Below are positions 5,304 to 63,469 of a stretch of DNA of 64,000 nucleotides, one piece after another. Source of the stretch: Bacteroidota bacterium (GTDB lineage Bacteria; Bacteroidota; Bacteroidia; Flavobacteriales_E; Vicingaceae); the NCBI GenBank assembly GCA_013112545.1, contig JABFGJ010000001.1, forward strand, positions 558,001 to 622,000, written 5' to 3'. Each line of letters begins with the position of its first letter. Positions within the stretch are counted from its first letter, which is position 1. Made by a program: the position numbers and the translations under genes. The notes beneath the pieces were generated by a model. The model did no database searches. It saw only the letters and a program-made list of their open reading frames with translations, and was not told the DNA's origin.

Positions 5304-8177
5304 TTATTTTGTTAATATAATTTTTTGTACTCCAAATCCACTATTCAAAAAGTAAATTCCACTTTCAAGGGGACTTAAATCAATTTTATTAAGGCCTTCA
5401 TTGATGTTTGTTTTGAAAATTAATTTTCCGGTGATGTCATTAATAAAAACAAATTTAGAATCCTTGTTAGGGTTTGCAATTGTGATTAAACCATTACTAG
5501 GGTTTGGGTAAATACTAAGTGTTTGCTTATCAATTTTTACCGCATTAATTCCGACAGACATGTTTGCAAAACCTGGACTTCCTAAAATTGCAAAACCATT
5601 TACAATTGCGCTGGTTAAAGTAGTAACAGAGGCTCTCCAATTTGAACCTAAATTGTTGTCGCTTAAAGAATCGATTAACTCAATAGAGGCTCCACCACCA
5701 CTTGGTTTTCCAGCACTAGTTCCAGAAGGCCATGGAGAAGAGGTTTTATAATCGACAGAGTCAATGGTTCTACCAAAGTTGTCGTGTAATACAATGTCTT
5801 CACCTCCATTGGACAACCCTCCAGAAGTCCATTGAGAATTAGCTGAAAATCCAAAAACATTTTTAAAAGCAGATGTGTCAACTGCGATGACATAAAACTC
5901 ACCTACTTGAATGGTTTCTTGACCAAAAGTATATGTAACTCCATCAGCGAATACGTAGCCATTCATTGGAACAGGATTATTTCCTGCATTTACAATTTCG
6001 ATGTATTCCAAAGAATCTACTCCACTTTCTGGTGGATTATACATAATTTCTGTGATGATTAAATTAGCAAGAGCCCCAGGGGCTTTTACCGTATCACAAA
6101 CAACATTTTGGCAGTTATTGGCATCGTTAATGGTCACACAATAAGCACCTGCAGCTAAGTTTGAAATAGATGCCGTAGTAGCACCATTGCTCCACATATA
6201 AGTATAAGTGGGCGTTCCACCTGATGTGGTTGCGACTATACTACCATCATTACAAGAAGTACAAGTTGTGCTGTTAGCTAGCAAAGTTGTACTTAATACT
6301 GGAGGCTCAGTTAAACTAGTAGAAAGCACAGAATCTGTTCCTATGGCATCTTCTACAGTAACCGTATAAGTTCCTGCAACTAGGTTAAATATAGAGTCAG
6401 TAATTGCTCCATTGCTCCATGTGTAGGTATATGGACTTGTTCCACCAGTAACACTAACTTTTATGTTACCATCTGAGAAACCATTGCAGGTAATATTGTT
6501 AAAAGTAATACTTGGGACTAAAGCTGAAGGGCCTGAAATGGTTGAACAATCAACAGCAGAGCAAGAATTAGCATCGCTAACAGTAACGCAATAAGTTCCA
6601 ACAACTAGTCCAGTCCTATTTTGACTAGTTGAACCATCAGACCATAAATAAGAATAAGGGCTTGTTCCACCACCTACTGTAATTGTTATGGTTCCGTTAG
6701 AACCTCCATTTGTTGTAACATTTGTTGAAGTCGAACCTATAGTAATAGCAGAGGGCTCTGAAATGGTAGTTGAGTTTACACTAGTTGTGCCATTAGCATC
6801 AGTTAAGGTAATGGCATATGTGCCTGCACATAAATTAGTTGTGCTGTCTGACATAGCCCCATTTGACCAAAGATAAGTGTAAGGGCTAGAGCCACCCGAG
6901 GCGTTTGCAACAGCTTTACCATCACAAACCCCATTACAAGAAGCATTTGTTGATACAATGTTTAAAGTAATAGGAGTAGGGCAGGTATTTGCAACACCTG
7001 GACTAGCATAGACTTGTTTACCATTGACAATTTTTCCAGTTACAACTTGAGTAGCTGCAGCCCAATTACTTCCAAGGCTATTGTCAGAACTTGTGTTACA
7101 CAAAACCAAAGAAGCTCCACCGCCATATACTTGACCTGCATTACCTCCATTTGGCCAAGGATTACTATTTTTATAATCAACAGAATCTATGGTTTTGCCT
7201 AAGTTATCAACTAGAATGATGTCTTCTCCACCATTAGACAAGCCACCAGAAGTCCAAATAAAGTCAGCATTTAAACCATAGGTATTTCTAAAAGCTGAAG
7301 AATCATAAGCAACTGTAAAGTATTGATTTGGAGTTATTATAGCTGAAGGGAAGGTGTGTATGACACCTTGAGTAAAATTAAATCCATTCAAGTCAACGGA
7401 AGTGCTTCCTGCATTAAAAAACTCGATAAATTCACTGGTGTCAGTTCCAGATTCTGGCCCATTATACATAATTTCTGTAATCACTAAATTTGGTGTAGCA
7501 GAGCTGTTTATAGTGTAAGTTATGTTTAATGTTGGATGAGTTGATGCAGTTGCATGCTCTCTTGTATTGAAACGCACAGCACTGCTAGGAGTGCTTTCAT
7601 CACCAATAATAATCCAACCAAAGTTTGATGAAGGGGAATTTACCCAGTTTTGAACATCATTAACTAGAGCTGTAGAAGATACCCAATTGACTGTTCCGAT
7701 GGTAACGGCAGCTGTTGCTGTAGGGGTTGAATTAAAATCACCACCTGAGCTTGTCCAGTTGCTTGTATTGTAAAAGGTATGAATCCAAGTCGCATCATTT
7801 GTTGTTGAACTTGTTCCACTACCTTCATTTCCCGGTGCATTAGAGTTCCCTTCACCCCAATCAGAATTTAATCGATGCAATGAAATATTAGTAGCAGAAG
7901 TTACCCCTTTGCTTGCTTCCATTTGTAAGCTAGCAGATGTAATTGTGATGTTGGCTGGAAGGCTTGATAAATTAAATTTTACCAAACCCCTTCTGATATA
8001 ATCACTTCCTTGGTTTGTTCTTCCTGCAAAAAGAAACTCCCCTACACTATTGCTTAGAGCTCCTGTTGATGATTCATATAGGGTATTATCTTTTTCTGCC
8101 GAAAAGCTAACGGTGGTTTGTGCATTTATAAGCAAATTGATAGAAAACAAAGCGGTAAGTAGTAGTAATTTATTCAT
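5304..8177 (-). CDS. Secreted protein with DNRLRE, two lamin-tail domains, four SprB-like repeats and type A T9SS sorting domain
   Basis: The 957-residue protein begins with a signal peptide (to about INAQ, residue 20). A DNRLRE-type beta domain spans about 28-220 (DNTLYESSTG, RRGLVKFNL). A lamin-tail domain spans about 229-392, four SprB-like repeats about 405-700, and a second lamin-tail domain about 705-869. The type A sorting domain starts near 882 (SIYPNPSNG, then LESGIYFL). The two lamin-tail domains are close copies of each other. Cysteine use in the four repeats is irregular: repeats 1 and 3 lack the GC partner, repeat 2 lacks the first cysteine. It probably reaches the cell surface through T9SS; its ligand cannot be told. 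The upstream gene's terminator lies only 25 bases before this ATG. Confidence 0.9.
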   Translation of the reverse strand: MNKLLLLTALFSINLLINAQTTVSFSAEKDNTLYESSTGALSNSVGEFLFAGRTNQGSDYIRRGLVKFNLSSLPANITITSASLQMEASKGVTSATNISLHRLNSDWGEGNSNAPGNEGSGTSSTTNDATWIHTFYNTSNWTSSGGDFNSTPTATAAVTIGTVNWVSSTALVNDVQNWVNSPSSNFGWIIIGDESTPSSAVRFNTREHATASTHPTLNITYTINSSATPNLVITEIMYNGPESGTDTSEFIEFFNAGSTSVDLNGFNFTQGVIHTFPSAIITPNQYFTVAYDSSAFRNTYGLNADFIWTSGGLSNGGEDIILVDNLGKTIDSVDYKNSNPWPNGGNAGQVYGGGASLVLCNTSSDNSLGSNWAAATQVVTGKIVNGKQVYASPGVANTCPTPITLNIVSTNASCNGVCDGKAVANASGGSSPYTYLWSNGAMSDSTTNLCAGTYAITLTDANGTTSVNSTTISEPSAITIGSTSTNVTTNGGSNGTITITVGGGTSPYSYLWSDGSTSQNRTGLVVGTYCVTVSDANSCSAVDCSTISGPSALVPSITFNNITCNGFSDGNIKVSVTGGTSPYTYTWSNGAITDSIFNLVAGTYTVTVEDAIGTDSVLSTSLTEPPVLSTTLLANSTTCTSCNDGSIVATTSGGTPTYTYMWSNGATTASISNLAAGAYCVTINDANNCQNVVCDTVKAPGALANLIITEIMYNPPESGVDSLEYIEIVNAGNNPVPMNGYVFADGVTYTFGQETIQVGEFYVIAVDTSAFKNVFGFSANSQWTSGGLSNGGEDIVLHDNFGRTIDSVDYKTSSPWPSGTSAGKPSGGGASIELIDSLSDNNLGSNWRASVTTLTSAIVNGFAILGSPGFANMSVGINAVKIDKQTLSIYPNPSNGLITIANPNKDSKFVFINDITGKLIFKTNINEGLNKIDLSPLESGIYFLNSGFGVQKIILTK
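5570..7493 (-). repeat. Intragenic duplication of a lamin-tail domain flanking SprB repeats
   Basis: The lamin-tail domain encoded around 7000-7493 and the one around 5570-6065 share long identical protein stretches such as WTSGGLSNGGEDI and TIDSVDYK. They sit symmetrically on either side of the four SprB-like repeats. This points to duplication of one domain inside the gene. Boundaries are approximate. Confidence 0.8.
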
Positions 8178-47070: not shown

Positions 47071-47991
47071 TTACTCTTCCTCTTCTACTTTTTCTCGATC
47101 GCGTTTATTAAACTTGATCGAAAGCATAATTTCATGAGTTCCGGTACTATAGTTTTTAATTCCAGATTGTAGAATATCATAGGAATAACCTAATGAAAAG
47201 CTATCTTGAAAAGTATATCCGCCTAATAAAACAATAGCATCATCTTGTCTATAAGAAAGCCCTAGCCAAACAGATTTTTGATAGATTCCTCTGAGGCTAG
47301 CCTCATATTGAACTGGAGTTGGTTTTACATATTTAACAAGAAAAGAAGGTTCAATATTTAAATTATTCCCAAGGTCTATCGTATAACCTCCCATAGCAAA
47401 ATAATGATTTACTAGTCTCCCGGTAGGATCTTTTATCGAGCTTTTAAAATCTAGTTGATTTTGAATAAGCTGTGGAGCTGAACCACCAAAGAAAAATTTT
47501 GGCCCATAAAGATAGAAGCTAAAGCCTGCATCTGGATAAAGGTTGGACTCCTGCGCTCTACTAATTACATTATCTGTTTGATCTTTAAAAAAGATTTCTG
47601 TTCCATCAACCGTATAGCTTAATATTCCAGCATTTATTGCAAACGAAAGCTTAATCTCGCTTGATAATTTTACATGATAGGAGTAGGATAAATTAAACCC
47701 ATTTCTTCGAGTTGGCCCAGTAACATCGACAAACATATACCCACCAATTCCCATCTTTTGATTAGCGATTGGGCCGTTTACACTTAAAATATATGTTCTA
47801 GGAGCGTCTTTAATTCCTTCCCACTGGCTTCTATAATTAGATTGACCAACAAAGTAGTTTTCACTACCTGCAGAAGCTGGATTAATTACATATCGGTTTA
47901 AGATATACTGACTATATTGAGGTAATTGCTGAGCCATGATTCCACTTACAAGCAGAATAGAACACGCAATATATAAAATAATTTTTTTCAT
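47071..47991 (-). CDS. PorP/SprF family type IX secretion membrane protein
   Basis: The 306-residue protein has a signal peptide (IILYIACSILLVSGIMAQ) and the PorP/SprF pattern: QLPQYSQYILNRYVINPASAGSENY, YRSQWEGIKDAPRTYILS, GIGGYMFVDVTGP, and a beta-barrel C-terminus (FSLGYSYDI). SprF is needed for secretion of SprB in Flavobacterium johnsoniae, and homologues are commonly paired with type B T9SS substrates. It starts one base after the giant repeat gene's stop, so it is almost surely the dedicated partner. I chose the second ATG (MKKII). Confidence 0.93.
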   Translation of the reverse strand: MKKIILYIACSILLVSGIMAQQLPQYSQYILNRYVINPASAGSENYFVGQSNYRSQWEGIKDAPRTYILSVNGPIANQKMGIGGYMFVDVTGPTRRNGFNLSYSYHVKLSSEIKLSFAINAGILSYTVDGTEIFFKDQTDNVISRAQESNLYPDAGFSFYLYGPKFFFGGSAPQLIQNQLDFKSSIKDPTGRLVNHYFAMGGYTIDLGNNLNIEPSFLVKYVKPTPVQYEASLRGIYQKSVWLGLSYRQDDAIVLLGGYTFQDSFSLGYSYDILQSGIKNYSTGTHEIMLSIKFNKRDREKVEEEE

Positions 47992-47992
47992 A

Positions 47993-50900
47993 CTATTTAA
48001 CAATTGTTATTGGTCCTGTAAATGGCTCAAAGCGTTTGCTATTTAAATCAATCACGTAATAATAAGTACCAATAGGAAGTGCTTTACCTTCATATGTACC
48101 ATCCCAAGCAACTTTATATCCATTAGATTGCTCAAAGACTAATGCTCCCCATCTGTTGTAAATCATAACTTTAGCATTTGGGAATTCTTCTAAGAAATCA
48201 ATTTCCCACTTATCGTTTACACCATCGCCATTTGGAGTTATACCTGAAGGAATTTTAATTTCAGGAGTATAATCTACCAAGATAGAGTCAACAAAGCTAC
48301 AACCTGTTGTGTCAGTTACGGTTAAAGTATATAGTAAAGTTTTCTTAGGTGCAGCAAAAGGTTCTGCAATTGTACTGTCGTTTAACCCAAAACCTGGAGT
48401 CCATAAATAGCTATATTGACTTTTTGTACCACTTAGTTTAAATGCTGCTATTTCATCTTTAAATATTTTAATAGAAGAGGCAAGACCAACTACTGGGTTT
48501 GAAACCACCGATACAAGATATTCACTAGTGTCAGTGCAAGAACCATTGCTTGCAATTAAATAAAATTTATAATCACCTATAGATCTATATATAGTGGTGT
48601 CCTCACTTTTCGTGAATAATGTTGAGGTGTTATCTATATACCAAGCAAAGTTTGTTACAGTAGAGCCAATAATTGTTCCGTCTAAATAGATGCTATCACC
48701 AGAACAAACAATACCAGATGCAGGTACTTGAGCAACAACTGTATCCGTTGCAGAGATATTTACAGTAGCAATGTTAGAACATCCAGTTGCGTCTGTAACT
48801 GTGACAGTGTTAAGGCCAAAACATAAAGTGTTTGGGGTAGTTCCAATTTGTCCGCCACTCCAATTGAAAGTATATGGAGAGCTACCACCAGATGCTGATA
48901 CATTAGCACTTGCATCACAATCTGAACTACATGATAAATTAGTAGATGATAGAATATTAACCGTTAAAGCAGGAGGATCTGTAAGAGTAACAGAAGTTGT
49001 TGCAGTACAACCATTAGCGTCAGTAGCTGTTAATGCGTATGTTCCAGCACACAGTCCACTTACAGGTATTCCATCCATATTAGGATCATTCCAAGAGTAT
49101 TGATAAAGAATATTTCCACCGGTTGTTGAGATAAATATTTCTCCATCACAAGCTCCGTTACAAGAGATGTTTTTCACAATTGATGAGCCAAGTAAAATGG
49201 AATCTGGTTCTTCAACAGTTGCATCTATGTATGTTTTACAACCACTTGTAATATCTGTTATTTCAAGATAGTAATCACCAGCACAAGCAGCATTAATTAA
49301 ATCTGAATTTATAGGAGACACCGCTAGTCCACGATCATTAAACCACTGGAATGTAACTCCAGTTATAATTGGCCCAATATTGCTAATCAATGAGCCGTCA
49401 CAACTGCTATTACAAGTTACATCAGTTATACTAGGAATAGTGCTATATTGATTGCCATTATTTGGTAGAGTAAGTGTCTTTTCTAACTGACAGCCATTTG
49501 CATCACTTACTGTTAAATAATAGATTCCTGCACACAGTCCATTTTGTACGTTTGAATTAGACAATGCCGATGGACCCCAAGTGTATGAGTATGGTTTAGT
49601 GCCACCTTTTACGTCAAGTCTAATTGAACCATCACAAGGGATAGAATTACATGTTTGTGCGATAATGTTTGATTGCAAACTCATAGCGGCAGGGCTATTA
49701 ATTTCTATATTAACGACCCTAGAACATCCTTTTACATCTGATACTTGGAGGGTATAATTCCCAGGGCATAAATTATTTTGTGTATTGCTAGTAGCTCCAT
49801 TATGTAGCCATAAATAGGTGTAAGGCGCTATTCCACCAATAGGAGTTACAGTAGCTCTTCCATCGCAACTTGAAGCACAAGAAGCAGGAGTAATACTTAC
49901 GGATTCCCCTGTTGGGCCACCAGTTGTATTAATAGTAATGTTTACAGTTTTGCTACATCCAATTGCATCTGTTACAACTGCCGTATAAACTCCACCACAT
50001 AAAGCAGTAGCACTGTCTAAAGTTGAGCCATTACTCCACAAGTATGTGTATGGAGCTGTACCACCTGTAACATTAAGTTTAGCTTCTCCATTACATAAAC
50101 CACAGTTAGCTTCTTTATATGCGATATTAACTAATATCTCATCCGGACCAGTTACAGTAGCAGTATCAAATGCAACACAGCCTAGGTTATCAGATACGCT
50201 TATGGTATAAGAGCCAGCTTTTAAATTTTGAATATCTCCAGTTGTATGGCCAAATGGCAACCAGTTATATGTAAAAGGGTTATTTGCGCCAGTTACTGTA
50301 GTATAAATTGCACCGTCTTGATCACCTAAACAAGTTACATTGTTGATAGAGTCAACAGTTATTGTTGGGCCATTCGTATTGCCAAGTGTTGTAAGGAACG
50401 TTTCTTCACAACCGTTGTCATCTGTTACTCTTAGATAATAAATGCCTGCTGCAACATTGCTAATGTTTGGATTGATTTGACCAACCAATAAAACACTTGC
50501 AGCATCAAACCATTGGTAATCGTAATCGAATATTACAGTACCGCCTGTTATTACTGCATTAATAAACCCATCAGCTTGTCCGCAAGTTGCGTCAATGGTG
50601 CTAAAGGTTGCTTTTATTTGCGCAGGACCAGTTAAAGTGTAAGTTAAAGTAGTATCACAACCATTTGCATCAGAAATAACAACGGTGTATTTTCCAGCTA
50701 GTAATTGCGAAGCATTAGCTGTGCCCTGACCAGCAATAGGTCCAGGACTCCAAACATAACTATAAGTACCAGAACCTCCACTAACATTTAAGTTAATGCT
50801 ACCGTTAAAAGCACCAAAACAACTAGGGTTAGTCAAATTAGCAGAAACTAAGAATTGATTTGCTTGACCAATGCTGATGGTCTCAATAGCTTTACATCCG

Positions 50901-53900
50901 CTATTATTGGTTACAATTACATAATAATCACCTGCACAAAGATTGTTTGCAGTTGATGTTGTAATACCCAGAGATGTTGAAGTTGTTGCATTAAACCACT
51001 CAATAGTACAGCTAGGGTCTAAGCATACAAAAGAGGCCGTAGCTTGTCCATCGCAAGCTCCAAAGCAACTAGCATCATTTTTAGTAATTGTAACTGCTTC
51101 TGAACCAATATCGCTTACAGCTACACTAAAACGGTCGAAGCAACCAGTTCCATCAGCAATATCAACATAATAAAGTCCAGAAGAAATAGAGTTTATGGAA
51201 TTTGTATTTCCAATAGAAGTTAAACTACTATTAAACCACTCGAATGTATAATTACTGGAAGAGCCACCACTAGCAATAACTGTTACCGCTCCATTAGGAA
51301 TATTACACGCAGGTTGAGTGATGTTGAAATTAGCTACAATTGGAGGTGGGCCGTTGATTGTGTAATTTTTTACAAGCTCACACCCACTTGCGTCCGAAAT
51401 AGTAACTGCATAATTTCCAACACAAAGAGATTTGGCCGTATCGCTAGTCACGCCAGTTATGGTTCCTGAAGGCCAGCTAAAGGTATAAGGTGCAAGTCCA
51501 CCACTTGGGGTAACATAGGCTTCTCCATCGCAAACAGTTAGATTAGTACAACTTTGATCAAAAGTGCTTACTACTGCAGTTAATGGGCTATTTGAATTAA
51601 TTGTTAATGAAATAGTAGTATCACAGTTTCCACCATCAGATATTGTAACTGTGTATGTTCCTCCACATAAATTAGTACGAATTCTTGTTGTTTCTCCTGT
51701 ATTCCAAGAATAAGTATATATCCCTGTTCCACCGCTTGGGTTAAGAGTTATAGAGCCATCACAGTTTCCTGAACAAGTTTCATCTGTAACAAATTCATTG
51801 GGTAAAATTGGGCTTCCACCTTGAATACTGAAAGTTTGTGAGGTAGTACAACCATTGTCATCCGTAACTGTTACAGAGTAATTGCCCGCAGCGAGATTAT
51901 TGATGTTTGGACCTGTTGCCCCAGTGGACCAATTATAAGTGTAATTAGCGGACACTGTTCCGCCTGTTGCAGAAGCACTAGCGGTACCATCATTTCCTGG
52001 AGAGCAAGTTTCATTGGTTTTATTTACAGATAAAATAATTCTAGTTGGTTCATTAACTCGAATTGATTTAACAACAAAACAGGCTGAAACAGGATCTGTA
52101 ACTGTTACGGTGTAAATTCCTGCAGATAATCCAGAAATAGTGTCCGTATTTCCTCCATTAGACCAGTTATAAGTTACTCCAGTTTTAGAAACTGTAGCAT
52201 AAGCTTTTCCATTAGATAAGCCAAAACAAGTAATGTTAATTGAATCTAAATCTAAGTTAAATGGGGCATTTTGGTTAATGATGTAGTTTTCAACTCCCAT
52301 ACATCCTTTACTATCTGTAATTGTTACTGTAAAAGCACCTGCGTTTAAGTTATTATTAGAATTATTAGTCGTGTTGCCTGCTCCCCAATTATACACAAAA
52401 GGAGATTTTCCTCCTACAACAGTATTTATAGTAGCAGACCCATCATTACCAGGAATACAAGAAGCTGGCTTAGTAATTATGTTTGCACTTATACCTGCTG
52501 GTTCATTTACAATGATAGAAGCTGTTTCTGTACAACCCGATATTGGGTCAGTAACAGTAACAGTATATGTGCCTGCACCTATATTTTTTATAGTATCAGT
52601 TATGCCACCATTAGACCAACTATAGGTAACGCCACTTATGGAAACTGTTGCATAGGCTTTACCATCAGTGAATCCATTACAAGTAGGATCAACTGCATTT
52701 AAAGTAACATTGTATGGAGCATTACTATTAATGGTATAAGTTTCTATTACACTACAGTTGTTTTTATCTGAAATTGTTACTGTGTATGTTCCAGCACTTA
52801 AATTGTTGCTAAAATTATTAGACGTATTTCCTGCGCCCCAATTATATGTATAAGGAAGGGTGCCTCCACTAATTGTTAATGTGCTTACTGACCCATCATT
52901 TCCTGGAGTGCAAGTCTCAGGGTTAGTTGCAAGTGTAACAACAATTGGGTTGGGTTCGTTTACAACTATTGATTTAGTTTCTACACAGCCACTAAATGGG
53001 TCGCTAACAGTTACTGTGTATGTTCCTGCAACGAGGTTGCGAATTGTATCTGTGTTACCACCATTAGACCATGTATAGGTTAACCCTACAAATGAGGCAG
53101 TTGCGTATGCCTTACCGTCAGATAGACCGTTGCAAGTAACATCTATAGAGTCTAAATCAAGTGTAAATGGTGCATCACTATTTATAATGAAAGGCTCATT
53201 AACAGAACATTGTGAAGCATCAGTAATGGTTAGCATATATGCACCAGCACTTAGATTATTTCTAAAATTATTAGAAGTATTTCCTGCTCCCCAATTAAAA
53301 GTATAGGGTGCATTTCCTCCAATTGTATTTATAGCTGTTACTGACCCATCACCTCCAGGAACACATGACTCTGGATTAGTAGTTATAATAGTTTGTATTT
53401 GCAAAGGCTCATTTACTACAATTGATTTGCTTCCAATACAGCCTGAGACTGGGTCGCTAACAGTAACAGTATAAGTTCCTGCTGTAAGGTTAAATATTGT
53501 ATCAGAAACACCACCATTAGACCAGTTATAAGTAACCCCACCAATTGAAGCGGTTACATATGCTTTTCCGTCATTTAAACCAAAGCAACTTACATCAATT
53601 GAATCTAGGTCTATATCAAATGGGGCTTTGTTGTCAATTACATAATTTTTAACAATGCTGCAACCAGATGCGTCTGTAACAGTTAAATTATAATTACCTG
53701 CAATTAAGTTGTTATTTGAATTGGTTGATGTGTTTCCAGCCCCCCAGTTATAGGTGTATGGGACTATACCTCCATTGATAGTGGAAACAGTAGCAGATCC
53801 ATCTGCACCTGGACTACATGACTCGGCGACTAAAGTTAATCCAACTGTTATTTGAATGGGTTGGTTAACTATAATGGAAGCGGTTTCTGAACAGCCATTA

Positions 53901-56900
53901 ACAGGGTCAGTAACAGTAACACGATAAGTGCCCGCTATCAAATTTGAAATAGTATCAGTTATACCTCCATTCGACCACCTAAAAGTTAATCCTGGATCAG
54001 ATGCAGTAACGTAGGCTTTACCATCAGCTAAACCAAAGCAAGACACGTTTACTGAATCTAAATCTATTGTAAATGCGGCATTACTGTTAATTGTGTAGTT
54101 ATTAACGACAGAACAATTATCATCATCAGTTAAAGTATAGGTATAATTACCAGCACTTAAATTAAGATTAAAATTATTAGTTGTATTTCCAGCACCCCAA
54201 TCATATGTATATGGGGTCTTGCCTCCAGAAACGCTTATTATTGATGCAGAACCATCATTACCAGGGGAGCAACTTTCTGGAGTTAAGGCAATCTGAGGTA
54301 TAATTTGTGCAGGTTGATTAACTTTTATAGATCCTGTTGAAACACAACCACTACCTGGATCAGTAACGGTAACACGGTAAGTTCCAGCAGTAAGATTTCT
54401 TATAGTATCCGTATTTCCTCCATTTGACCAATTAAATGTAAGCCCTGAAGTAGAAACTGTAACATATGCTTTTCCGTCATTTAAACCAAAGCAACTTACA
54501 TCAATTGAATCTAGATTTGCGCTAAAAGGAGCTGTGTTGTCTATTGTATAATTTTCGACAGTTATACATGATTTCGAATCTGTAATTGTAACATTGTAAT
54601 TGCCTGCAACTAAATTGTTGTTTGTATTGATTGTTGTGTTTCCAGCTCCCCAGTTATACGTATATGGGCCTGTTCCTCCTATAGGATTAGAAGTAACAGA
54701 TCCATCATTACCAGGACTACAAGATTCATTAACAATTACAAATCCACCATTTATTTGCGCAGGCTCATTAACTATGATAGAACCTGTTGAGATACAACCA
54801 CTCACAGGGTCAGTTACAGTTAATCTATATGTTCCGGCAATTAAATTCTTAATAGTATCTGTAGTTCCACCAGTTGACCACAAATAAGTTACACCAGGCA
54901 ACGAGACTGTTGCATATGCTTTACCATTGCTTAATCCGAAACAAGTAACGTCAACTGAATCAATGTCAACAGTAAAAGGAGCAGTATTATTAATGGTAAA
55001 TGTACTTACAACAGAACAGTTGTTGTTGTCAGAAATAGTAACCCTATAATTTCCTGCAGTTAAATTATTAAGCGTATTGTTACTTGTATTGCCGCTTCCC
55101 CAATTATAAGTGTAGGCTCCAGTTCCACCTGTAGGGTTAGCAGTTACACTTCCATCATTTCCTGGCGAACAGCTTTCGGGTGTTGTAGCTAAAACTGGAT
55201 TTATAACACTGGGTTCGGTTATTGTTTTACATTCAGACTGAACACAACCTGTAGCTAGATCAGTAACTGTAACACAATATAACCCAGGTGAAAGACCAGT
55301 GTGAACTTTATTTGGAGCTAGCCCATTATTCCAACTGTAAACAGGGTTTGTTGCATTATTCGTCGCTGTTAATCCACCATTGTTTAATCCATTACATGTT
55401 GAATTTGAAGTGGTTAAATTCAAGTTGAAAATAGTGGCTGAGTTAACTGTTATCGTTATTGTTGAAGAACAATTATTATCATCAAAAACGGTTACATTGT
55501 AGTTGCCTGCAGTTAATCCAGTTTGATTCTTTTGTGCTGGTAATCCGCTATCCCAAGCATAAGTATAATTGTTAGGGACGGCAACGGTTCCTCCACTAGG
55601 GTTTAAGGTAATAGATCCATCGTTTCCAGGACTGCATGTTTCAACTTGTGTTGTAAATGCTATAACAATAGGGCTTGGGTCTGATAAATTAAAACGAGCT
55701 GTTTCAATACAACCACTTCCTGCATCAGTTATAGTAACATTGTATGTATTTGCTGTTAAGTTGGTCAGGTCTTCCGAAGTACTTCCATTATCCCAAAGGT
55801 AAGTAACCGTACCGCTAGCACCTGTTACTGTTAAATCAATAGCTCCGTCAGAAAGTCCGTTGCATGAAATAGGAGTGACAATGGATGTTAAATTAAAAGG
55901 AGCATCTTGATTGATAAAGTAAGGTATAGCTTGAGAGCAACCAGCACTGTCCGTAATCGTTACAGTATAATTTCCAGTTGCTAAACCGCTGTTTGAATTA
56001 TTAGATGTGTTTCCGCTTCCCCAATTAAATGTATGAGGCCCTTTTCCACCTGAAGTACTTGTGGCGGTAACTGTACCATCATTTCCTGGTGAACAACTTT
56101 CACCAGTTATGCTAAAAGTTGCCGTGATTTCGGATCCTTCGCCGATAATAAATGTCTCGGTAACTGTACATCCTTGTCGATCGGTAACTACAAGATTATA
56201 AGTACCTGCAGCTACATTTGAGGGATTGGCTCCTGAAATAGTTGATGGGGACCAATCATAGCTTAAAGGATTAGCACCACCCGTGGCAGAAGTAAAGATG
56301 TTTCCATCGCTTCCACCAAAACAAGTTGCATCTTTAAAACTTGAGGAAATAGTAGGGGGAACACTTTTAGGAATATTTATAGACTTCGTTGTTGAACAAC
56401 CATTAATATCACTAACTGTAATTGTATAATTGCCTGATGAAAGTAAATAAATATCACCTTGAAAAACAGTCCCAAATGCAGCAGCAACTGTATATGGCCC
56501 TGTACCACCTTTTGGAGTTAAAAAGGCAGCTCCATCATTTCCAGGTGAACAAGACTCCCATCCTTCAACAACATCTACAGTAATTGGGTTTGGAGACAAG
56601 ACAGTATATGTTTCTACTTTAGTACATGGAGGACTTGCATTGTCTGAAATGGTAACGGTATAGTTTCCTCTGCACAAACCTGTTTGAGTCGCTTGAGCAG
56701 GCAATCCAAGTCCCCAATTATAAACATAACCAGTCGTAATTGTTCCTCCAGTTGGATTTAACGTAATGGTACCATCGCAACTACTAAAACAAGATGTGCT
56801 ATCTAGTGTAGGGTTTCCTTCAATGTCTGAACCAGCTCCAATTGCAAAAGCTTGAATTCTTGTACATCCTCTTGCGTCAGTAACTGTAACCGAATAAACA

Positions 56901-59900
56901 CCCTTTGTTAGGTTAGCAACAGAATCATTAAAGATAACTCCTGTTCCTATTTGCCAATTATAAGTATATGGTTCAAGCCCCTTGGTTGCTAATACTACAG
57001 CATAGCCATCATTTCCAGGGTTACAGGACTCATCTTCAGTGTCCATGTGAACTTCAATAGGGGATTCTTCAAGGACATTATAAGTTTTAACTTCACTACA
57101 GTTATTTCCATCAGTAATAGTCACTTTATAAATTCCTTGTATAAGGTTGTTTCTATCTTCGGTATTTGCATTATTATTCCAATGAAAAGTAAGGGGTTGC
57201 ACTCCACCAATAATAGTTAAGTCAATTATTCCATCAGATCCACCATTACAACTAGGCCGGGTTATAGTGTCTCGTACTGTGAATGGAGCAACCTTGTTGA
57301 TTTCATATGTTTCAACAACTGAACAATTATTCGAATCGCTTACAGTAACATTATAAATCCCTGAATTAAGGCCTGTATTTATTGAGTTCGTGGTATTACC
57401 ATTTCCCCAATTAAAGGTATAGGGACTCGTTCCTCCAATTATAAATGCACTAGCTGATCCATCATTGCCAGGAATACAATTTTCTCCTGTTGTTATGATA
57501 GTATCTACTTCTAAAACACCTGGCTCTGGGACAACTATAGTAGATATTTCTGCGCATCCAGCATTATCTGTAACAGTTATAGTGTAAGTGCCACCTACAA
57601 GATTCTTTGGGTTTGAACCTACCATCCAGCCTTTAGACCAATTATAGGTTACTGGATTCACTCCTCCAGTTGTAGAAATAAAAATTTCACCATCATTTCT
57701 ACCATTACAAGTTACACCTATTACAGAGTCAGTAATTGCAAGCGCAGAATAATTTTGAATTGTAAAAGGGACTGAAATGCTACAACCATTAGCGTCTTCA
57801 ATAAGAACTGAGTAGGTGTTGGCTTGAAGCCCAATTATAAAATTTAAGCTATTAGCTAGCTTTGTTGGCCAAGTGTATGTGTATGGTGATTGACCTCCAC
57901 TTGTAGTTGCAGTTGCTGATCCTATTCCCGATAAGCAAGTGTCTTTTCTAGTTGATATTGTTGCTGTTAAAGCATTTGGTTCGCTAATCGTATAGTTTAG
58001 TATTGTGTCGCAACCATTGGCATCAGCAATAGTAACACTATAATTACCCATGCATAGATTTGGATTTATTGGGGTATTTCCAATTGCATTACTCCAAGTG
58101 TAAGTCAATGGTAATGAGCCTCCTGTGATGTTTTGAATTTCAATGTAGCCGTCGCATAAACCATTGCATGAAACCTGCTCGATTGAATCAGTAAAGGTAT
58201 AATTTACAGAACCATCTAAAATGGTGTATGTAGATACAGAATCACAACCTAAAGCATCACTAATAGTTAAAGTATAATTCCCCGGACATAAATTTGAAGC
58301 AATTGGTCCTGTAACACCATTTGACCAATTGTAAGTAACCACTGGACTACCGCCAGTTAAATTCTTAATTTCTATATAACCATCACATGAACCTCCGCAT
58401 GAAGTACTCACTAGAGAATCTCTATAGGAATAGGCTGGACTTCCAGCATTTATTGTAAAACTTGTTACGGTATCACATCCATTTTCATCGAATACTGTAA
58501 GTGAGTATGTACCAGATGTCAGGTTGTTTATTGTACTTGTTGTTCCGTTTGTTTGAGCAGGGCTTGTTGTTGACCACTCAAACGTGTAAGTACTTCCAGT
58601 ACCTCCAATTGGGGTAGAAGTGGCAGAACCATTTCCAGTATTATTACAAGTTTCATCTGTTTTAGAAAAAACAGGGTCAACTTTTGTTAACGGTTGTCCT
58701 ACTGTTACAGTCCTTGTTTCAAAACATTGATTTGCATCCTCGATTGTCACTGTATATGAACCAGCAAGTAGATTTTGATTATTAATTCCAACAAATCCAT
58801 TTGACCAAGTGTAAGTAATTGGGGCTACTCCACCAATTGCAGCTACAATTGCAGAACCAGAGTTTTCTCCAAAACATTGAGCGTCAAATGCCGTTGCACC
58901 TATTACTATAAGCGGAGTAGTAGGAGTCAACAAAACATTATCTGTAGCAACACAGCCATTTGCATCTGTAACAGTTACAGTATGTAAGCCAGGTGCTAAT
59001 CCATTAACTGTTTTAGTAGTTTGTGCAGTGCCACTCCACGCGTAAGTATATGGACTAGTCCCACCAGATTCGTTAGCAGTTAATTTACCATCATTCGTTC
59101 CACTACATGGTCGTTTATCTAGATTGAGATTTACAGCTAGCAATGCAGGTTCAGTAATGGTTGTAGAAAACACTACGCTACAGTTATTTTGGTCAGATAT
59201 AGTTACACTATAACTTCCAGCAGTTAAGTTATCATTTAGCCCACTATTTGCAGCAGCAGGATTCCAGTTATAGGTATAAGCTCCAGTTCCTCCTACGCCT
59301 ACTACTTCTATTAAGCCATTACTTTGGCCATTACACGAAACATTTTCTTTGCGAACTAAGTTAAAATTTAGAGCATTGGCAGAGCCAATAGTAACACTTG
59401 CGCTATCTGTACAACCATTCGCATCTGTAACGGTTACGGTATAATTTCCAGCCGAAAGCCCGGTGAGAGTTGTTCCAGTCAAAGTAGATGGTGTCCAGTC
59501 AAAAGTGTAATTTGTTGTTCCTCCAGCAGCAGATATATTCGCTGTTCCATCTGCAGTACCAAAACAAGTAACATCTGTGAAACTATCTACTGTTAATACT
59601 AGTGTTTGGGGTTCAGGAATATTAAAAGACTCTATTAAGGTACACCCATTATCATCTGTAATTGTTACATCATAATTTCCACCTGCTAACCCAGTACGAG
59701 AATTAGTAAACACACCATCAGGCCAAGTGTATGTTAAAGGATTTGTTCCACCAGTGATATTTAAGGTTGCACTCCCTGTTAAATTCCCATTACAATCAAC
59801 ACCAGTAATTGTGGTGCCATTTGAAGTTAAACCAATAGCAGGCTCTGAAATATTGTATGTTTTAATGTCTTCGCATCCCGTATTATCCGATACTGTTAAT

Positions 59901-62900
59901 GTGTATGTTCCCGAAGTTAAATTTTGATTAATATTTGTAATTCCAGCTCCGTTTGACCAAGTATAAGTGTAGGGTAAATTTCCACCAGCAACGTTGACAC
60001 CTATATAACCATTATTGCCACCTTTGCAATCGACTTGATGGGTAGAGTCGGTTGTAATTACAACTGAACTTGGGGCAATTAGTATAGTGTCGGCAGTAAT
60101 TGAACATCCATTATCGTCTGTGATAGTCACGGTGTAGGTGCCTCCTCCTTTGTTGTTTATAGTTGAAGTCGTTTCACCATCAGGAGACCACAAATAAGTA
60201 TAATTACCTGCAACTGTTCCTCCACCTGCTAAAACAGTCACAACTCCATCATTGATTCCATTACACCTTGGGTTTGAAGCTAAAGTAATACTGGCAGTTA
60301 GTTGTGTTGGTTGAGAAACCACTGCTGAATCAACTTTAGTACAAGCTTTACTGTCGGTAATGGTAACAAAATATTTCCCTACAGTTAAGTTTTTAATGGT
60401 ATCTGAGTTACCTCCGTTAGACCAATTATAGTTTACAAAAACACCTGAACCACCAGATGCAGTTACATAAACTTCACCGTCATTACCACCATTACAACTA
60501 ACATTGGTAACAGTAGTGTCTGATAAGATTTCAATACCAGGGAGTATTGTAATGCTTTCAACTTTCTGACAATTGTTGCCATCAGTAACCGTAACTGTAT
60601 ATAAGCCCGCACTAAGATTACTTCTATTTTGAGCAGTTGAGCCATTATTCCAAAGGAAGGAATAATTTGGAACACTAGTGCCGCCATTCACAACAGTTGT
60701 AATTGAACCAGTAGAGCTACCAAAACAGTCAACATCTGTTTTATTTAAAGTAACCGAAAGAGCTGCTAAAGGTTGATCGATAGAAAAGGGTTCTACAATA
60801 AAACACCCATTATTATCTGTTATAGTTACATTATAATTTCCTTTGACTAAACCGCCTTCTGTAGCAGTTGTGTTAGCAGAGCCTGTTGACCATGCATAGG
60901 TGTAAGGATTAGCGCCATTTATAGGATTAGCAGTAGCAGAACCAGTGGCATCTCCAAAACATTTAACATCAACGGTGCTGACATTTGGAACAATGGCAAT
61001 TGGGTCTGTTAGTGTAATTGATTTAGTATTTGAGCAATTGTTTGCGTCGGTAACGGTAACGACATAATTTCCAGAAGGTAAGTTGGTAATGTTGGTTGAG
61101 TTGTTTACTCCATTAGACCAATCAAAAGTATAAGGTGCAGTTCCTCCGTTAGCATTGGCGGTTAATGCTCCAGTACTTGATCCAAAACAAGTTATAAAGG
61201 TAGTGTCAGAAAAAAATGGGATTAATGAGTCTGGCTCACTTACATAAGCTGAATCGATTTTAGTACAACTGGAAGAATTAGTAACTGTAACATAGTAGTA
61301 TTGATCGCCATCTAAATTAGAAATGGTGCTTGTGTAAGGAACTGAATTATCAGTTGTTCTTGCACCTGTTGACCAATCGAATGTAGTTGCTCCAGGTGTT
61401 CCACCTGTAACCGTAACTGTAATTTCTCCATCTTGAGCGTCTTTACAAGATACATCAATTACAGTAGAATCAACTTCAATTTTGGTAGGTGAAAAAACAG
61501 TTCTAGCGTCAACTATTTGACAACCTTTATTGTCCGTAACGGTGAAGCTATAACTAATTCCTGTTGGTGAGCCGAAAAGATTATTTCGATTTGGACCAAC
61601 AGTGGAACCATCACTCCAAGCATACGTATAATTTGGAGTGCCACCACCTGGATTAATGTTAATTGACCCATTATTGGATGAAAAACAGGAGGCATCACTT
61701 TTAGTTGGGTTGACTGTTAATGCAGTGGGTTGATTAATAGTAAAGGCTTCCACGCTAGTACACCCGTCTTTATCGGTTACAGTTACATCGTAATTCCCTT
61801 GAGATAAGCCATTTTCAGTGTCGGTTGTATTTGGAGAACCAGTTGACCAAGAATAGGTATAAGGAGCAGCTCCATTGATTGGACTAGAAGTTGCAGATCC
61901 CGTTGATCCACCAAAGCATTTAACATTTGAAACACTAACATTTGGGATAATTGCTACAGGGTCTGCTAAATTAATAGAAGTAAAATTTGTACAACCGTTT
62001 GCATCTACAACAGTAACGACATAATTACCAGAAGGGAGATTAGTAATATTTGTTGAATTATTAATCCCATTAGACCAATTAAAAGTATAAGGTGAGGTAC
62101 CTCCATTTGCATCAGCAGTTAAAGCACCTGAGCTAGAACCAAAACAAGCGACAAAAGTGGTGTCTGAAAAGAATGGAATGACAGAATCTGGCTCATTTAC
62201 ATAAGCCGAATCGATTTTAGTACAAACTGAAGAGTTGGTTACTGTAACATAGTAATATTGATCACCATCTAAATTTGAAATAGTGCTTGTGTAAGGAACT
62301 GTATTGTCAGTTGTTCTTGCACCTGTTGACCAATCGAATGTAGTTGTTCCAGGTGTTCCACCAGTAACCGTAACTGTAATTTCTCCATCTTGTGCATTTT
62401 TACAAGAAACATCTACCACGGTAGAGTCAACTTCAATTTTTGTTGGCGAGAAAACAGTTCTTGAGTCATTTGCTTGACATCCATTATTGTCCGTTACTGT
62501 GAATGAGTAAGTAATTCCAGTAGGTGAGCCAAATAGGTTATTTCTGATTGGGCCAGCAGTAGAACCATCATTCCAAGCATATGTATAGTTAGGAGAACCT
62601 CCATTTGGGTTTATGTTTATGGAGCCATTGTTTGATGAAAAGCAAAAAGCGTCACTTTTAGTTGGGTTGACGGTAAGGAGTGGTGGTTGACTGATTGTAA
62701 AAGATTGAACACCTTCGCAGCCTTTATCATCAATTACAGTAACTGTATAAACCCCTGCAACTAAGCCTGATTCTGTATCAGTGTTATTAGCTAAATTAGA
62801 AGACCACTTATAAGTTGTATAATTTCCAGACCCCCCTGTTGGTAATGCAGTAACAGAGCCATTAGCGTCACCAAAACATAAAAGTGACTTGTTTTGTACA

Positions 62901-63469
62901 TTAGGTAGAATAGTGTCTGGTTGAACAACAGTTGAAGAGTCAATAGCAGTACAAGCATTTCCATCTGTAATTGTAACATAATATTTTCCATCGCAAATAT
63001 TTGTAATGTTAGCTGTTGTTTGTCCATTTGCATTTGGACTCCATGTGTAAGTAAAGTTTTCATCACCGCCGCCCGCTACAACAGTTACTGAACCATCACA
63101 AACATTATAACACGATGGAGGATTATTAAAAGTAAAGCTTACAACCTGAGAGGGTTCAATAATAGTAAATGTTTTAAATCGAGTAGAGTTATCAGCATGG
63201 TCAAAAACGGTAATGGTATAATTTCCAGTTTTTAAGTTTCGAATAGTATCTCCAACATTAAAAAATTGGATAGGGTTTGTATTTACTCGTATAGTATATG
63301 GGCCTGAAGCACCAATAGTTGTTAAGCTGTTTATAACTACTAAACCATCAGTAGAGCCAAAACAAGTTGGATTTTGAGAATAAATATTTACAACACCCAC
63401 TAAACCAAATGAATTTAGTGAAAAAGTAGATAAAGAAATAAAAATAAAAAGTCTAAAAAAAACTTTCAT
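47993..63469 (-). CDS. Giant SprB-repeat surface protein (5,158 residues) with gliding-motility-type C-terminal domain
   Basis: The protein has a signal peptide (residues 1-22). I count about 63 SprB-type repeats of 70-80 residues with the pattern C-x-G-x-x-[DN]G, GG-x-x-PYTY-x-WSNG, NL-x-AG-x-Y-x-VTVTD, and GC. A Cys-poor Ig-like section follows near residues 4900-5060. The last 90 residues (PSGITPNGDGVNDKWEI to TGPITIVK) form the type B/gliding-motility sorting domain. Repeats near 263-902 are tandem duplicates; those near 1990-3900 alternate between two classes; the last 13 are rich in extra cysteine pairs. No enzyme motif is seen. It is likely a long extracellular adhesin moved or anchored by T9SS, as SprB is. 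Confidence 0.93.
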   Translation of the reverse strand: MKVFFRLFIFISLSTFSLNSFGLVGVVNIYSQNPTCFGSTDGLVVINSLTTIGASGPYTIRVNTNPIQFFNVGDTIRNLKTGNYTITVFDHADNSTRFKTFTIIEPSQVVSFTFNNPPSCYNVCDGSVTVVAGGGDENFTYTWSPNANGQTTANITNICDGKYYVTITDGNACTAIDSSTVVQPDTILPNVQNKSLLCFGDANGSVTALPTGGSGNYTTYKWSSNLANNTDTESGLVAGVYTVTVIDDKGCEGVQSFTISQPPLLTVNPTKSDAFCFSSNNGSININPNGGSPNYTYAWNDGSTAGPIRNNLFGSPTGITYSFTVTDNNGCQANDSRTVFSPTKIEVDSTVVDVSCKNAQDGEITVTVTGGTPGTTTFDWSTGARTTDNTVPYTSTISNLDGDQYYYVTVTNSSVCTKIDSAYVNEPDSVIPFFSDTTFVACFGSSSGALTADANGGTSPYTFNWSNGINNSTNITNLPSGNYVVTVVDANGCTNFTSINLADPVAIIPNVSVSNVKCFGGSTGSATSSPINGAAPYTYSWSTGSPNTTDTENGLSQGNYDVTVTDKDGCTSVEAFTINQPTALTVNPTKSDASCFSSNNGSININPGGGTPNYTYAWSDGSTVGPNRNNLFGSPTGISYSFTVTDNKGCQIVDARTVFSPTKIEVDSTVIDVSCKDAQDGEITVTVTGGTPGATTFDWSTGARTTDNSVPYTSTISNLDGDQYYYVTVTNSSSCTKIDSAYVSEPDSLIPFFSDTTFITCFGSSTGALTANANGGTAPYTFDWSNGVNNSTNITNLPSGNYVVTVTDANNCSNTKSITLTDPIAIVPNVSTVDVKCFGDATGSATANPINGANPYTYAWSTGSANTTATEGGLVKGNYNVTITDNNGCFIVEPFSIDQPLAALSVTLNKTDVDCFGSSTGSITTVVNGGTSVPNYSFLWNNGSTAQNRSNLSAGLYTVTVTDGNNCQKVESITILPGIEILSDTTVTNVSCNGGNDGEVYVTASGGSGVFVNYNWSNGGNSDTIKNLTVGKYFVTITDSKACTKVDSAVVSQPTQLTASITLASNPRCNGINDGVVTVLAGGGTVAGNYTYLWSPDGETTSTINNKGGGTYTVTITDDNGCSITADTILIAPSSVVITTDSTHQVDCKGGNNGYIGVNVAGGNLPYTYTWSNGAGITNINQNLTSGTYTLTVSDNTGCEDIKTYNISEPAIGLTSNGTTITGVDCNGNLTGSATLNITGGTNPLTYTWPDGVFTNSRTGLAGGNYDVTITDDNGCTLIESFNIPEPQTLVLTVDSFTDVTCFGTADGTANISAAGGTTNYTFDWTPSTLTGTTLTGLSAGNYTVTVTDANGCTDSASVTIGSANALNFNLVRKENVSCNGQSNGLIEVVGVGGTGAYTYNWNPAAANSGLNDNLTAGSYSVTISDQNNCSVVFSTTITEPALLAVNLNLDKRPCSGTNDGKLTANESGGTSPYTYAWSGTAQTTKTVNGLAPGLHTVTVTDANGCVATDNVLLTPTTPLIVIGATAFDAQCFGENSGSAIVAAIGGVAPITYTWSNGFVGINNQNLLAGSYTVTIEDANQCFETRTVTVGQPLTKVDPVFSKTDETCNNTGNGSATSTPIGGTGSTYTFEWSTTSPAQTNGTTSTINNLTSGTYSLTVFDENGCDTVTSFTINAGSPAYSYRDSLVSTSCGGSCDGYIEIKNLTGGSPVVTYNWSNGVTGPIASNLCPGNYTLTISDALGCDSVSTYTILDGSVNYTFTDSIEQVSCNGLCDGYIEIQNITGGSLPLTYTWSNAIGNTPINPNLCMGNYSVTIADANGCDTILNYTISEPNALTATISTRKDTCLSGIGSATATTSGGQSPYTYTWPTKLANSLNFIIGLQANTYSVLIEDANGCSISVPFTIQNYSALAITDSVIGVTCNGRNDGEIFISTTGGVNPVTYNWSKGWMVGSNPKNLVGGTYTITVTDNAGCAEISTIVVPEPGVLEVDTIITTGENCIPGNDGSASAFIIGGTSPYTFNWGNGNTTNSINTGLNSGIYNVTVSDSNNCSVVETYEINKVAPFTVRDTITRPSCNGGSDGIIDLTIIGGVQPLTFHWNNNANTEDRNNLIQGIYKVTITDGNNCSEVKTYNVLEESPIEVHMDTEDESCNPGNDGYAVVLATKGLEPYTYNWQIGTGVIFNDSVANLTKGVYSVTVTDARGCTRIQAFAIGAGSDIEGNPTLDSTSCFSSCDGTITLNPTGGTITTGYVYNWGLGLPAQATQTGLCRGNYTVTISDNASPPCTKVETYTVLSPNPITVDVVEGWESCSPGNDGAAFLTPKGGTGPYTVAAAFGTVFQGDIYLLSSGNYTITVSDINGCSTTKSINIPKSVPPTISSSFKDATCFGGSDGNIFTSATGGANPLSYDWSPSTISGANPSNVAAGTYNLVVTDRQGCTVTETFIIGEGSEITATFSITGESCSPGNDGTVTATSTSGGKGPHTFNWGSGNTSNNSNSGLATGNYTVTITDSAGCSQAIPYFINQDAPFNLTSIVTPISCNGLSDGAIDLTVTGASGTVTYLWDNGSTSEDLTNLTANTYNVTITDAGSGCIETARFNLSDPSPIVIAFTTQVETCSPGNDGSITLNPSGGTVAVPNNYTYAWDSGLPAQKNQTGLTAGNYNVTVFDDNNCSSTITITVNSATIFNLNLTTSNSTCNGLNNGGLTATNNATNPVYSWNNGLAPNKVHTGLSPGLYCVTVTDLATGCVQSECKTITEPSVINPVLATTPESCSPGNDGSVTANPTGGTGAYTYNWGSGNTSNNTLNNLTAGNYRVTISDNNNCSVVSTFTINNTAPFTVDIDSVDVTCFGLSNGKAYATVSLPGVTYLWSTGGTTDTIKNLIAGTYRLTVTDPVSGCISTGSIIVNEPAQINGGFVIVNESCSPGNDGSVTSNPIGGTGPYTYNWGAGNTTINTNNNLVAGNYNVTITDSKSCITVENYTIDNTAPFSANLDSIDVSCFGLNDGKAYVTVSTSGLTFNWSNGGNTDTIRNLTAGTYRVTVTDPGSGCVSTGSIKVNQPAQIIPQIALTPESCSPGNDGSASIISVSGGKTPYTYDWGAGNTTNNFNLNLSAGNYTYTLTDDDNCSVVNNYTINSNAAFTIDLDSVNVSCFGLADGKAYVTASDPGLTFRWSNGGITDTISNLIAGTYRVTVTDPVNGCSETASIIVNQPIQITVGLTLVAESCSPGADGSATVSTINGGIVPYTYNWGAGNTSTNSNNNLIAGNYNLTVTDASGCSIVKNYVIDNKAPFDIDLDSIDVSCFGLNDGKAYVTASIGGVTYNWSNGGVSDTIFNLTAGTYTVTVSDPVSGCIGSKSIVVNEPLQIQTIITTNPESCVPGGDGSVTAINTIGGNAPYTFNWGAGNTSNNFRNNLSAGAYMLTITDASQCSVNEPFIINSDAPFTLDLDSIDVTCNGLSDGKAYATASFVGLTYTWSNGGNTDTIRNLVAGTYTVTVSDPFSGCVETKSIVVNEPNPIVVTLATNPETCTPGNDGSVSTLTISGGTLPYTYNWGAGNTSNNFSNNLSAGTYTVTISDKNNCSVIETYTINSNAPYNVTLNAVDPTCNGFTDGKAYATVSISGVTYSWSNGGITDTIKNIGAGTYTVTVTDPISGCTETASIIVNEPAGISANIITKPASCIPGNDGSATINTVVGGKSPFVYNWGAGNTTNNSNNNLNAGAFTVTITDSKGCMGVENYIINQNAPFNLDLDSINITCFGLSNGKAYATVSKTGVTYNWSNGGNTDTISGLSAGIYTVTVTDPVSACFVVKSIRVNEPTRIILSVNKTNETCSPGNDGTASASATGGTVSANYTYNWSTGATGPNINNLAAGNYSVTVTDDNGCTTSQTFSIQGGSPILPNEFVTDETCSGNCDGSITLNPSGGTGIYTYSWNTGETTRIRTNLCGGTYTVTISDGGNCDTTISLTINSNSPLTAVVSTFDQSCTNLTVCDGEAYVTPSGGLAPYTFSWPSGTITGVTSDTAKSLCVGNYAVTISDASGCELVKNYTINGPPPIVANFNITQPACNIPNGAVTVIASGGSSSNYTFEWFNSSLTSIGNTNSINSISSGLYYVDIADGTGCFDRFSVAVSDIGSEAVTITKNDASCFGACDGQATASFVCLDPSCTIEWFNATTSTSLGITTSTANNLCAGDYYVIVTNNSGCKAIETISIGQANQFLVSANLTNPSCFGAFNGSINLNVSGGSGTYSYVWSPGPIAGQGTANASQLLAGKYTVVISDANGCDTTLTYTLTGPAQIKATFSTIDATCGQADGFINAVITGGTVIFDYDYQWFDAASVLLVGQINPNISNVAAGIYYLRVTDDNGCEETFLTTLGNTNGPTITVDSINNVTCLGDQDGAIYTTVTGANNPFTYNWLPFGHTTGDIQNLKAGSYTISVSDNLGCVAFDTATVTGPDEILVNIAYKEANCGLCNGEAKLNVTGGTAPYTYLWSNGSTLDSATALCGGVYTAVVTDAIGCSKTVNITINTTGGPTGESVSITPASCASSCDGRATVTPIGGIAPYTYLWLHNGATSNTQNNLCPGNYTLQVSDVKGCSRVVNIEINSPAAMSLQSNIIAQTCNSIPCDGSIRLDVKGGTKPYSYTWGPSALSNSNVQNGLCAGIYYLTVSDANGCQLEKTLTLPNNGNQYSTIPSITDVTCNSSCDGSLISNIGPIITGVTFQWFNDRGLAVSPINSDLINAACAGDYYLEITDITSGCKTYIDATVEEPDSILLGSSIVKNISCNGACDGEIFISTTGGNILYQYSWNDPNMDGIPVSGLCAGTYALTATDANGCTATTSVTLTDPPALTVNILSSTNLSCSSDCDASANVSASGGSSPYTFNWSGGQIGTTPNTLCFGLNTVTVTDATGCSNIATVNISATDTVVAQVPASGIVCSGDSIYLDGTIIGSTVTNFAWYIDNTSTLFTKSEDTTIYRSIGDYKFYLIASNGSCTDTSEYLVSVVSNPVVGLASSIKIFKDEIAAFKLSGTKSQYSYLWTPGFGLNDSTIAEPFAAPKKTLLYTLTVTDTTGCSFVDSILVDYTPEIKIPSGITPNGDGVNDKWEIDFLEEFPNAKVMIYNRWGALVFEQSNGYKVAWDGTYEGKALPIGTYYYVIDLNSKRFEPFTGPITIVK
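51840..57490 (-). repeat. Alternating two-class SprB repeat array (PG-x-DG units every second position)
   Basis: Repeat units 26 to 50 alternate strictly. Even units carry C-x-PG-x-DG, as in CSPGNDG, and 'NWGxGNT'-like strands. Odd units carry forms such as SCFGLxDGKAY. Seven central pairs are spaced close to 452 bases: the PG-x-DG codons recur near 55150, 54702, 54248, 53798, 53342, 52890 and 52438. Boundaries are approximate. Confidence 0.88.
60763..62677 (-). repeat. 957-base tandem duplication of four SprB units
   Basis: The segment beginning at the codon for Leu in LTVNPTKSDA (62677) recurs at 61720, exactly 957 bases (319 residues) later. Units 4-7 and 8-11 keep the same order and near-identical protein, for example SCK-AQDGEITVTVTGGTPG and DGDQYYYVTVTNSS. 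DNA differs mostly at silent positions. Confidence 0.88.

Follow-up and report, generated by a model that had tools for sequence, protein, structure and literature searches.

SprB-like proteins, which transmit force when cells glide or adhere, rank among the largest surface proteins of bacteria. The closest solved relatives of the SprB repeats described here, by sequence (hmmsearch E 4e-59) and by fold (VIA Z 10.4, rmsd 14.2 over 225 residues), are found in GhpA, the grappling hook protein of Aureispira (PDB 9FLP, 9FLW and others). In F. johnsoniae, a twin-cysteine motif in the C-terminal tail of SprF attaches SprF to GldK by a disulfide (PMC12635249). A literature search found no description of disulfides in the SprB repeats themselves; an earlier description in the structural work on GhpA is possible.

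The window, a stretch of 64,000 nucleotides from a Vicingaceae genome, contains an open reading frame for a T9SS-exported protein of 5158 residues (47993..63469, on the minus strand, as are all window features below). The SprB repeat profile PF13573 gave matches of 484.6 and 306.5 bits (curated cut-off 28), and an HMM derived from the units of this protein found 63 full SprB units plus a degenerate 64th, in exact agreement with the unit numbering of the initial annotation. The units are followed by two terminal Ig-like domains (aa 4906–5066; 48272..48754) and a C-terminal CHU_C sorting domain (48005..48259; PF13585 E 4e-25, TIGR04131 E 6e-20), which identifies the protein as a T9SS type B substrate. 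Weak Pfam matches within the repeats, such as BiPBP_C and Por_Secre_tail, were attributed to cross-matching by Thr/Val-rich strands. Directly downstream of the adhesin lies a PorP/SprF-family outer-membrane protein (47071..48003; PF11751 E 2e-77, TIGR03519), its likely carrier, with no cysteine in its C-terminal tail. Units 8–11 of the giant protein are an almost unchanged copy of the four-unit block 4–7, representing a recent duplication, and units 36–49 form a two-unit super-repeat in which CSPGNDG-type and CFGLxDGKAY-type units strictly alternate. A related genome carries an SprB-type open frame of 10,249 residues (L083; G002:C9, around 372000–391900).

Four recurrent cysteines were named by their alignment columns: C1 near the unit start (column 21), C2 in the CDG motif (column 25), C3 in NL-C-xG (column 58, or 59 in the wider model) and C4 in TDxxGC (column 73). 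The initial annotation had noticed that C2 and C3 occur together, and tabulation of the columns over the 63 units bore this out: both are present in unit 2 (aa 100–181; 62927..63172), units 22–23 (aa 1670–1828; 57986..58462), unit 29 (aa 2208–2290; 56600..56848), units 51, 52 and 54 (within the block of units 51–54, aa 3880–4200; 50870..51832) and all six of units 58–63 (aa 4437–4905; 48755..50161), and neither is present in the other 50. Nine of the last 13 units carry the pair, as claimed. A second pair, YC with another cysteine 14 residues on (YC/C+14; columns 63/77 here, 64/78 in the wider model), was likewise found where it had been reported, as YCVT…SEC in unit 35 (aa 2672–2751; 55217..55456) and in repeats 2 and 4 of a 957-residue protein (P0002) encoded in the same window. 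Unit 54 contains an additional pair, FVCLDPSC, at columns 35/40. The 957-residue protein, whose four SprB repeats lie at 6102..6983, follows the C2/C3 rule in repeat 1, which has both cysteines, but breaks it in repeat 4 (CTSCNDG), which has C2 without C3.

The common cysteines C1 and C4 had been read as one pair within each unit. Covariation instead most likely links C1 of one unit (n) with C4 of the following unit (n+1). In the giant protein, units 1–63 have C1 and units 2–64 have C4, an offset of one: unit 1 (aa 27–103; 63161..63391), with no unit before it, has C1 but no TDxxGC cysteine, and C4 without C1 is found in the 64th, terminal Ig domain. Counted in this way, and including the intervening Ig domain (IVC4922 and GSC4978), the 158 cysteines of the protein resolve into 79 pairs: 64 lie at junctions, 13 are C2/C3 pairs, and the last two are a YC/C and a 35/40 pair. 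The chain is closed by TDTTGC5057, the only cysteine of the second Ig domain. All junctions of the 957-residue protein also balance under inter-unit pairing: C1 is missing in repeat 2 and C4 in repeat 3, C1 is present in repeats 1 and 3, and C4 is present in repeats 2 and 4. Repeat 1 has no C4 because no repeat precedes it.

Two samples, together roughly 2 Mb of DNA, were surveyed for the same patterns. Sample 1 comprised 59 SprB-bearing stretches from genomes of the same order and phylum (1571 units), and sample 2 comprised 80 loci from named GTDB genomes (1365 units); removal of three redundant proteins from the merged set left 2301 complete non-redundant units. Junctions were classified as having C1(n) and C4(n+1) both present, C1 only, C4 only, or neither. 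The counts were 1324, 7, 1 and 18 in sample 1 (OR 3405, p=3e-34) and 1098, 4, 18 and 6 in the named sample (p=1e-8), and in the combined non-redundant set they were 2347, 11, 19 and 24 (p=1.6e-37). Within a unit, C1 and C4 were not associated: p=1 in sample 1, where joint loss did not occur in any unit, p=1 in the named sample and p=0.64 in the combined set. The 30 discordant junctions compare with 66.9 (minimum 52) in shuffles within each protein, and the junctions lacking both cysteines are spread over 14 proteins. C4(n) and C1(n+1) show little or no association, although they are only about 25 residues apart, as against about 128 residues for C1(n) and C4(n+1), so that proximity in the chain does not explain the pattern.

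The 19 junctions at which C1 was lost and C4 kept (18 from the named sample and one from sample 1) were read individually. At 18 of them, a replacement cysteine was present in the inter-unit linker, in much the same position (TVTVxxxxC). The linker window of a coarser combined test also picks up other cysteine pairs (L209, L121), so a cysteine in the linker is not in itself unusual, and the strict result is the 18 of 19. The compensation, which had not been predicted beforehand, is difficult to account for unless the two units are physically bonded there. The converse case, in which C1 is kept and the C4 of the next unit is missing, was found at eleven junctions. Some of these are explained by a CxxC self-pair (L155) or by a displaced or truncated C4; junctions of the L107/L137/L103 type are not covered by these explanations and count against a clamp at every junction.

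Among the 2301 units of the survey, C2 and C3 were both present in 350 and both absent in 1939, with C2 alone in 4 and C3 alone in 8. Shuffling the labels within each protein gave a mean of 279 discordant units (minimum 246), compared to the 12 observed. Units with the pair came from Flavobacteriales, Saprospira, Aureispira, Bacteroidales and Chitinophagales records. The exceptions mostly appear to make sense: six units with an orphan C3 (five in sample 1, one in L147) have a cysteine in the C-E loop alongside (SWVGTC, SGPC, VPAC), and some orphan C2 cysteines, such as CTSCNDG in the 957-residue protein and CYGCNNG in L155, belong to CxxC motifs, with the downstream partner absent. In L155 and in repeat 4 of the 957-residue protein (6102–6317), a C1 without a downstream partner sits in the CxxC, as if the neighboring cysteine capped the orphan.

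The proposed partnership of C2 and C3 thus holds across Bacteroidota, both in covariation and as the strongest coupling in the direct-coupling analysis described below. Other parts of the original picture, which had envisaged two mutually exclusive optional staples with the first concentrated at the C-terminal end, did not carry over unchanged. The YC/C+14 pair is real (15 units with both cysteines, 5 with a single one) but rare. It never co-occurred with C2/C3, against about 2.3 co-occurrences expected, and with so few units this does not establish mutual exclusivity (p=0.15). Two staples are also too few, since there are at least two further optional pairs, at columns 12/77 and 35/40; a scan of all cysteine columns returned five significant extra pairs (25/59, 12/77, 64/78, 35/40 and 14/77). 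The 12/77 pair recurs at most junctions of a 5366-residue Saprospiraceae open frame (L209), with the linker xCxVxIxEPxxLxC. C-terminal enrichment of the C2/C3 pair was seen in the giant protein (p=0.001) and in six proteins of the same family, some of which are probably orthologues; it was absent or reversed in other proteins, and was rejected as a general rule.

Mean-field direct coupling was calculated over 12,720 column pairs from 2476 pairs of neighboring units, with an effective number of about 1710. The C2–C3 pair (25–59) was the strongest true coupling, the few higher ranks being artefacts of overlapping seam columns and of the duplicate copy of each unit. C21(n)–C73(n+1) ranked 10 of 12,720, compared to 221 for C73(n)–C21(n+1) and 723 for C21–C73 in the same unit, and the 64–78 (YC/C+14) pair ranked 46. 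The remaining top couplings (44–55, 30–54, 42–65 and 33–42) look like contacts between neighboring strands, which supports the method.

AlphaFold2 models were made of units 58–60 of the giant protein and of the four repeats of the 957-residue protein. Both models had a mean pLDDT of 94.9 and six strands per unit, and the predicted fold is an Ig-like β-sandwich, all-β and with Ig/FnIII structural neighbors. The inter-domain pTM was moderate (0.73 and 0.76), which counts against the junction clamp. In the models, the strand order assigns C1 and C2 to the A-B turn, C3 to the E-F turn and C4 to the F-G turn. An Ig domain has its A-B and E-F turns at one pole, toward the following domain, and its F-G turn at the other, toward the preceding one. 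From the strand order and this topology, we infer that C1 would face the C4 of the next domain and that C2–C3 would span two turns of the same pole.

The presence of both C1 and C4 in nearly all units might suggest that they form a disulfide within each unit, as in a classical Ig domain, with C2/C3 as a second intra-unit disulfide. The classical core disulfide joins the B and F strands, and these units have no conserved cysteine in either strand, only in the A-B and F-G turns, which by strand order would lie at opposite poles. Since, in addition, neither sample shows a within-unit association, the direct coupling within the unit is weak, and the losses match up across the junction instead, we regard intra-unit C1–C4 pairing as very improbable.

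Nor do we give much credence to the idea that the co-occurrences simply reflect unit subtypes inherited through duplication, with no physical pairing. The arrays do contain recent duplications, such as the 4–7 and 8–11 blocks noted above, and units with the C2/C3 pair cluster in some proteins. But the pair-bearing units have a mean identity of 38% and fall into 282 clusters at 60% identity, so the pair is not one unit copied many times. Inheritance of subtypes would also have to link the distant C1(n) and C4(n+1) while leaving the nearby C4(n) and C1(n+1) with little or no association, and to supply a linker cysteine at nearly every junction where C1 was lost. The within-protein shuffles, the identity clustering and the linker compensation led us to reject both chance and copying as the cause.

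We consider it very likely that the giant protein, exported by the T9SS and carried by SprF, forms a filament of Ig-like SprB domains, each clamped to the next by a disulfide, with optional staples inside individual domains. C1 in the A-B turn of unit n would bond to C4 (TDxxGC) in the F-G turn of unit n+1, and the chain of clamps would run from unit 1 through the last Ig domain. The commonest staple would connect the A-B turn (CDG) to the E-F turn (NL-C-xG). It would sit at the pole of the clamped junction and might stiffen the joint further; rarer ones would connect the F-G strands (64/78), the B-C hairpin (35/40) and the A-G strands (12/77). Together, clamps and staples may make a long extracellular stalk stiffer and better protected, with the highest density toward the membrane end in the giant protein and its near relatives. 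The pairing of the cysteines is seen in covariation and coupling, and the all-β fold is predicted with high confidence; disulfide formation, its geometry and its mechanical role are what we infer from them.

No match to DsbB (PF02600) or VKOR (PF07884) was found in the same genome, which counts against a disulfide chain, and the DsbA family gave one weak match (L237). The lack of DsbB and VKOR would fit paired cysteines that serve as metal ligands or redox thiols, but such a role is hardly credible for an extracellular protein whose cysteines form strict pairs, in twos rather than fours, at several structural positions (12/77, 35/40, 64/78), and disulfides do occur in envelope proteins of F. 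johnsoniae (PMC12635249).

SprB-type filaments across Bacteroidota are probably continuous disulfide daisy-chains with all joints clamped, in which modular staples, placed unit by unit, tune stiffness or resistance to proteases and redox conditions. Such filaments would behave as semi-rigid rods sensitive to redox conditions, not as flexible strings, and the joints that naturally lack both cysteines, such as the one between repeats 2 and 3 of the 957-residue protein and those in L083 and L112, should be hinges. An oxidation step would be needed, either in the course of T9SS export or after it, and the genome has no recognized DsbB or VKOR. The rule by which the cysteines pair also offers a way to infer from sequence alone which domains touch.

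Compared to the described systems, the giant protein resembles the SprB gliding adhesin in its Pfam repeat (PF13573), its T9SS type B sorting domain and its adjacent PorP/SprF gene. It differs in that the C-terminal tail of the PorP/SprF neighbor (P0003) lacks the Cys-X-Cys that ties SprF to GldK, so that a part in gliding does not follow from the likeness. GldK is present in the genome, and a tail cysteine occurs in several further PorP/SprF paralogues encoded there (PCAKF, SCPSF, LCPKF and PCPKF; L230, L231, L234, L235). The SprF–GldK disulfide (PMC12635249) is a precedent for a disulfide within the same export and gliding apparatus, but it joins the carrier to the periplasmic track, whereas the proposed SprB clamps would lie in the extracellular stalk. 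The GhpA domains have CEGD…NGC cysteines at matching places by sequence alignment; their structures are cryo-EM fragments of a hook apparatus, unlike the SprB-type protein here. The larger result is the pairing of cysteines across junctions, which the initial annotation had missed.
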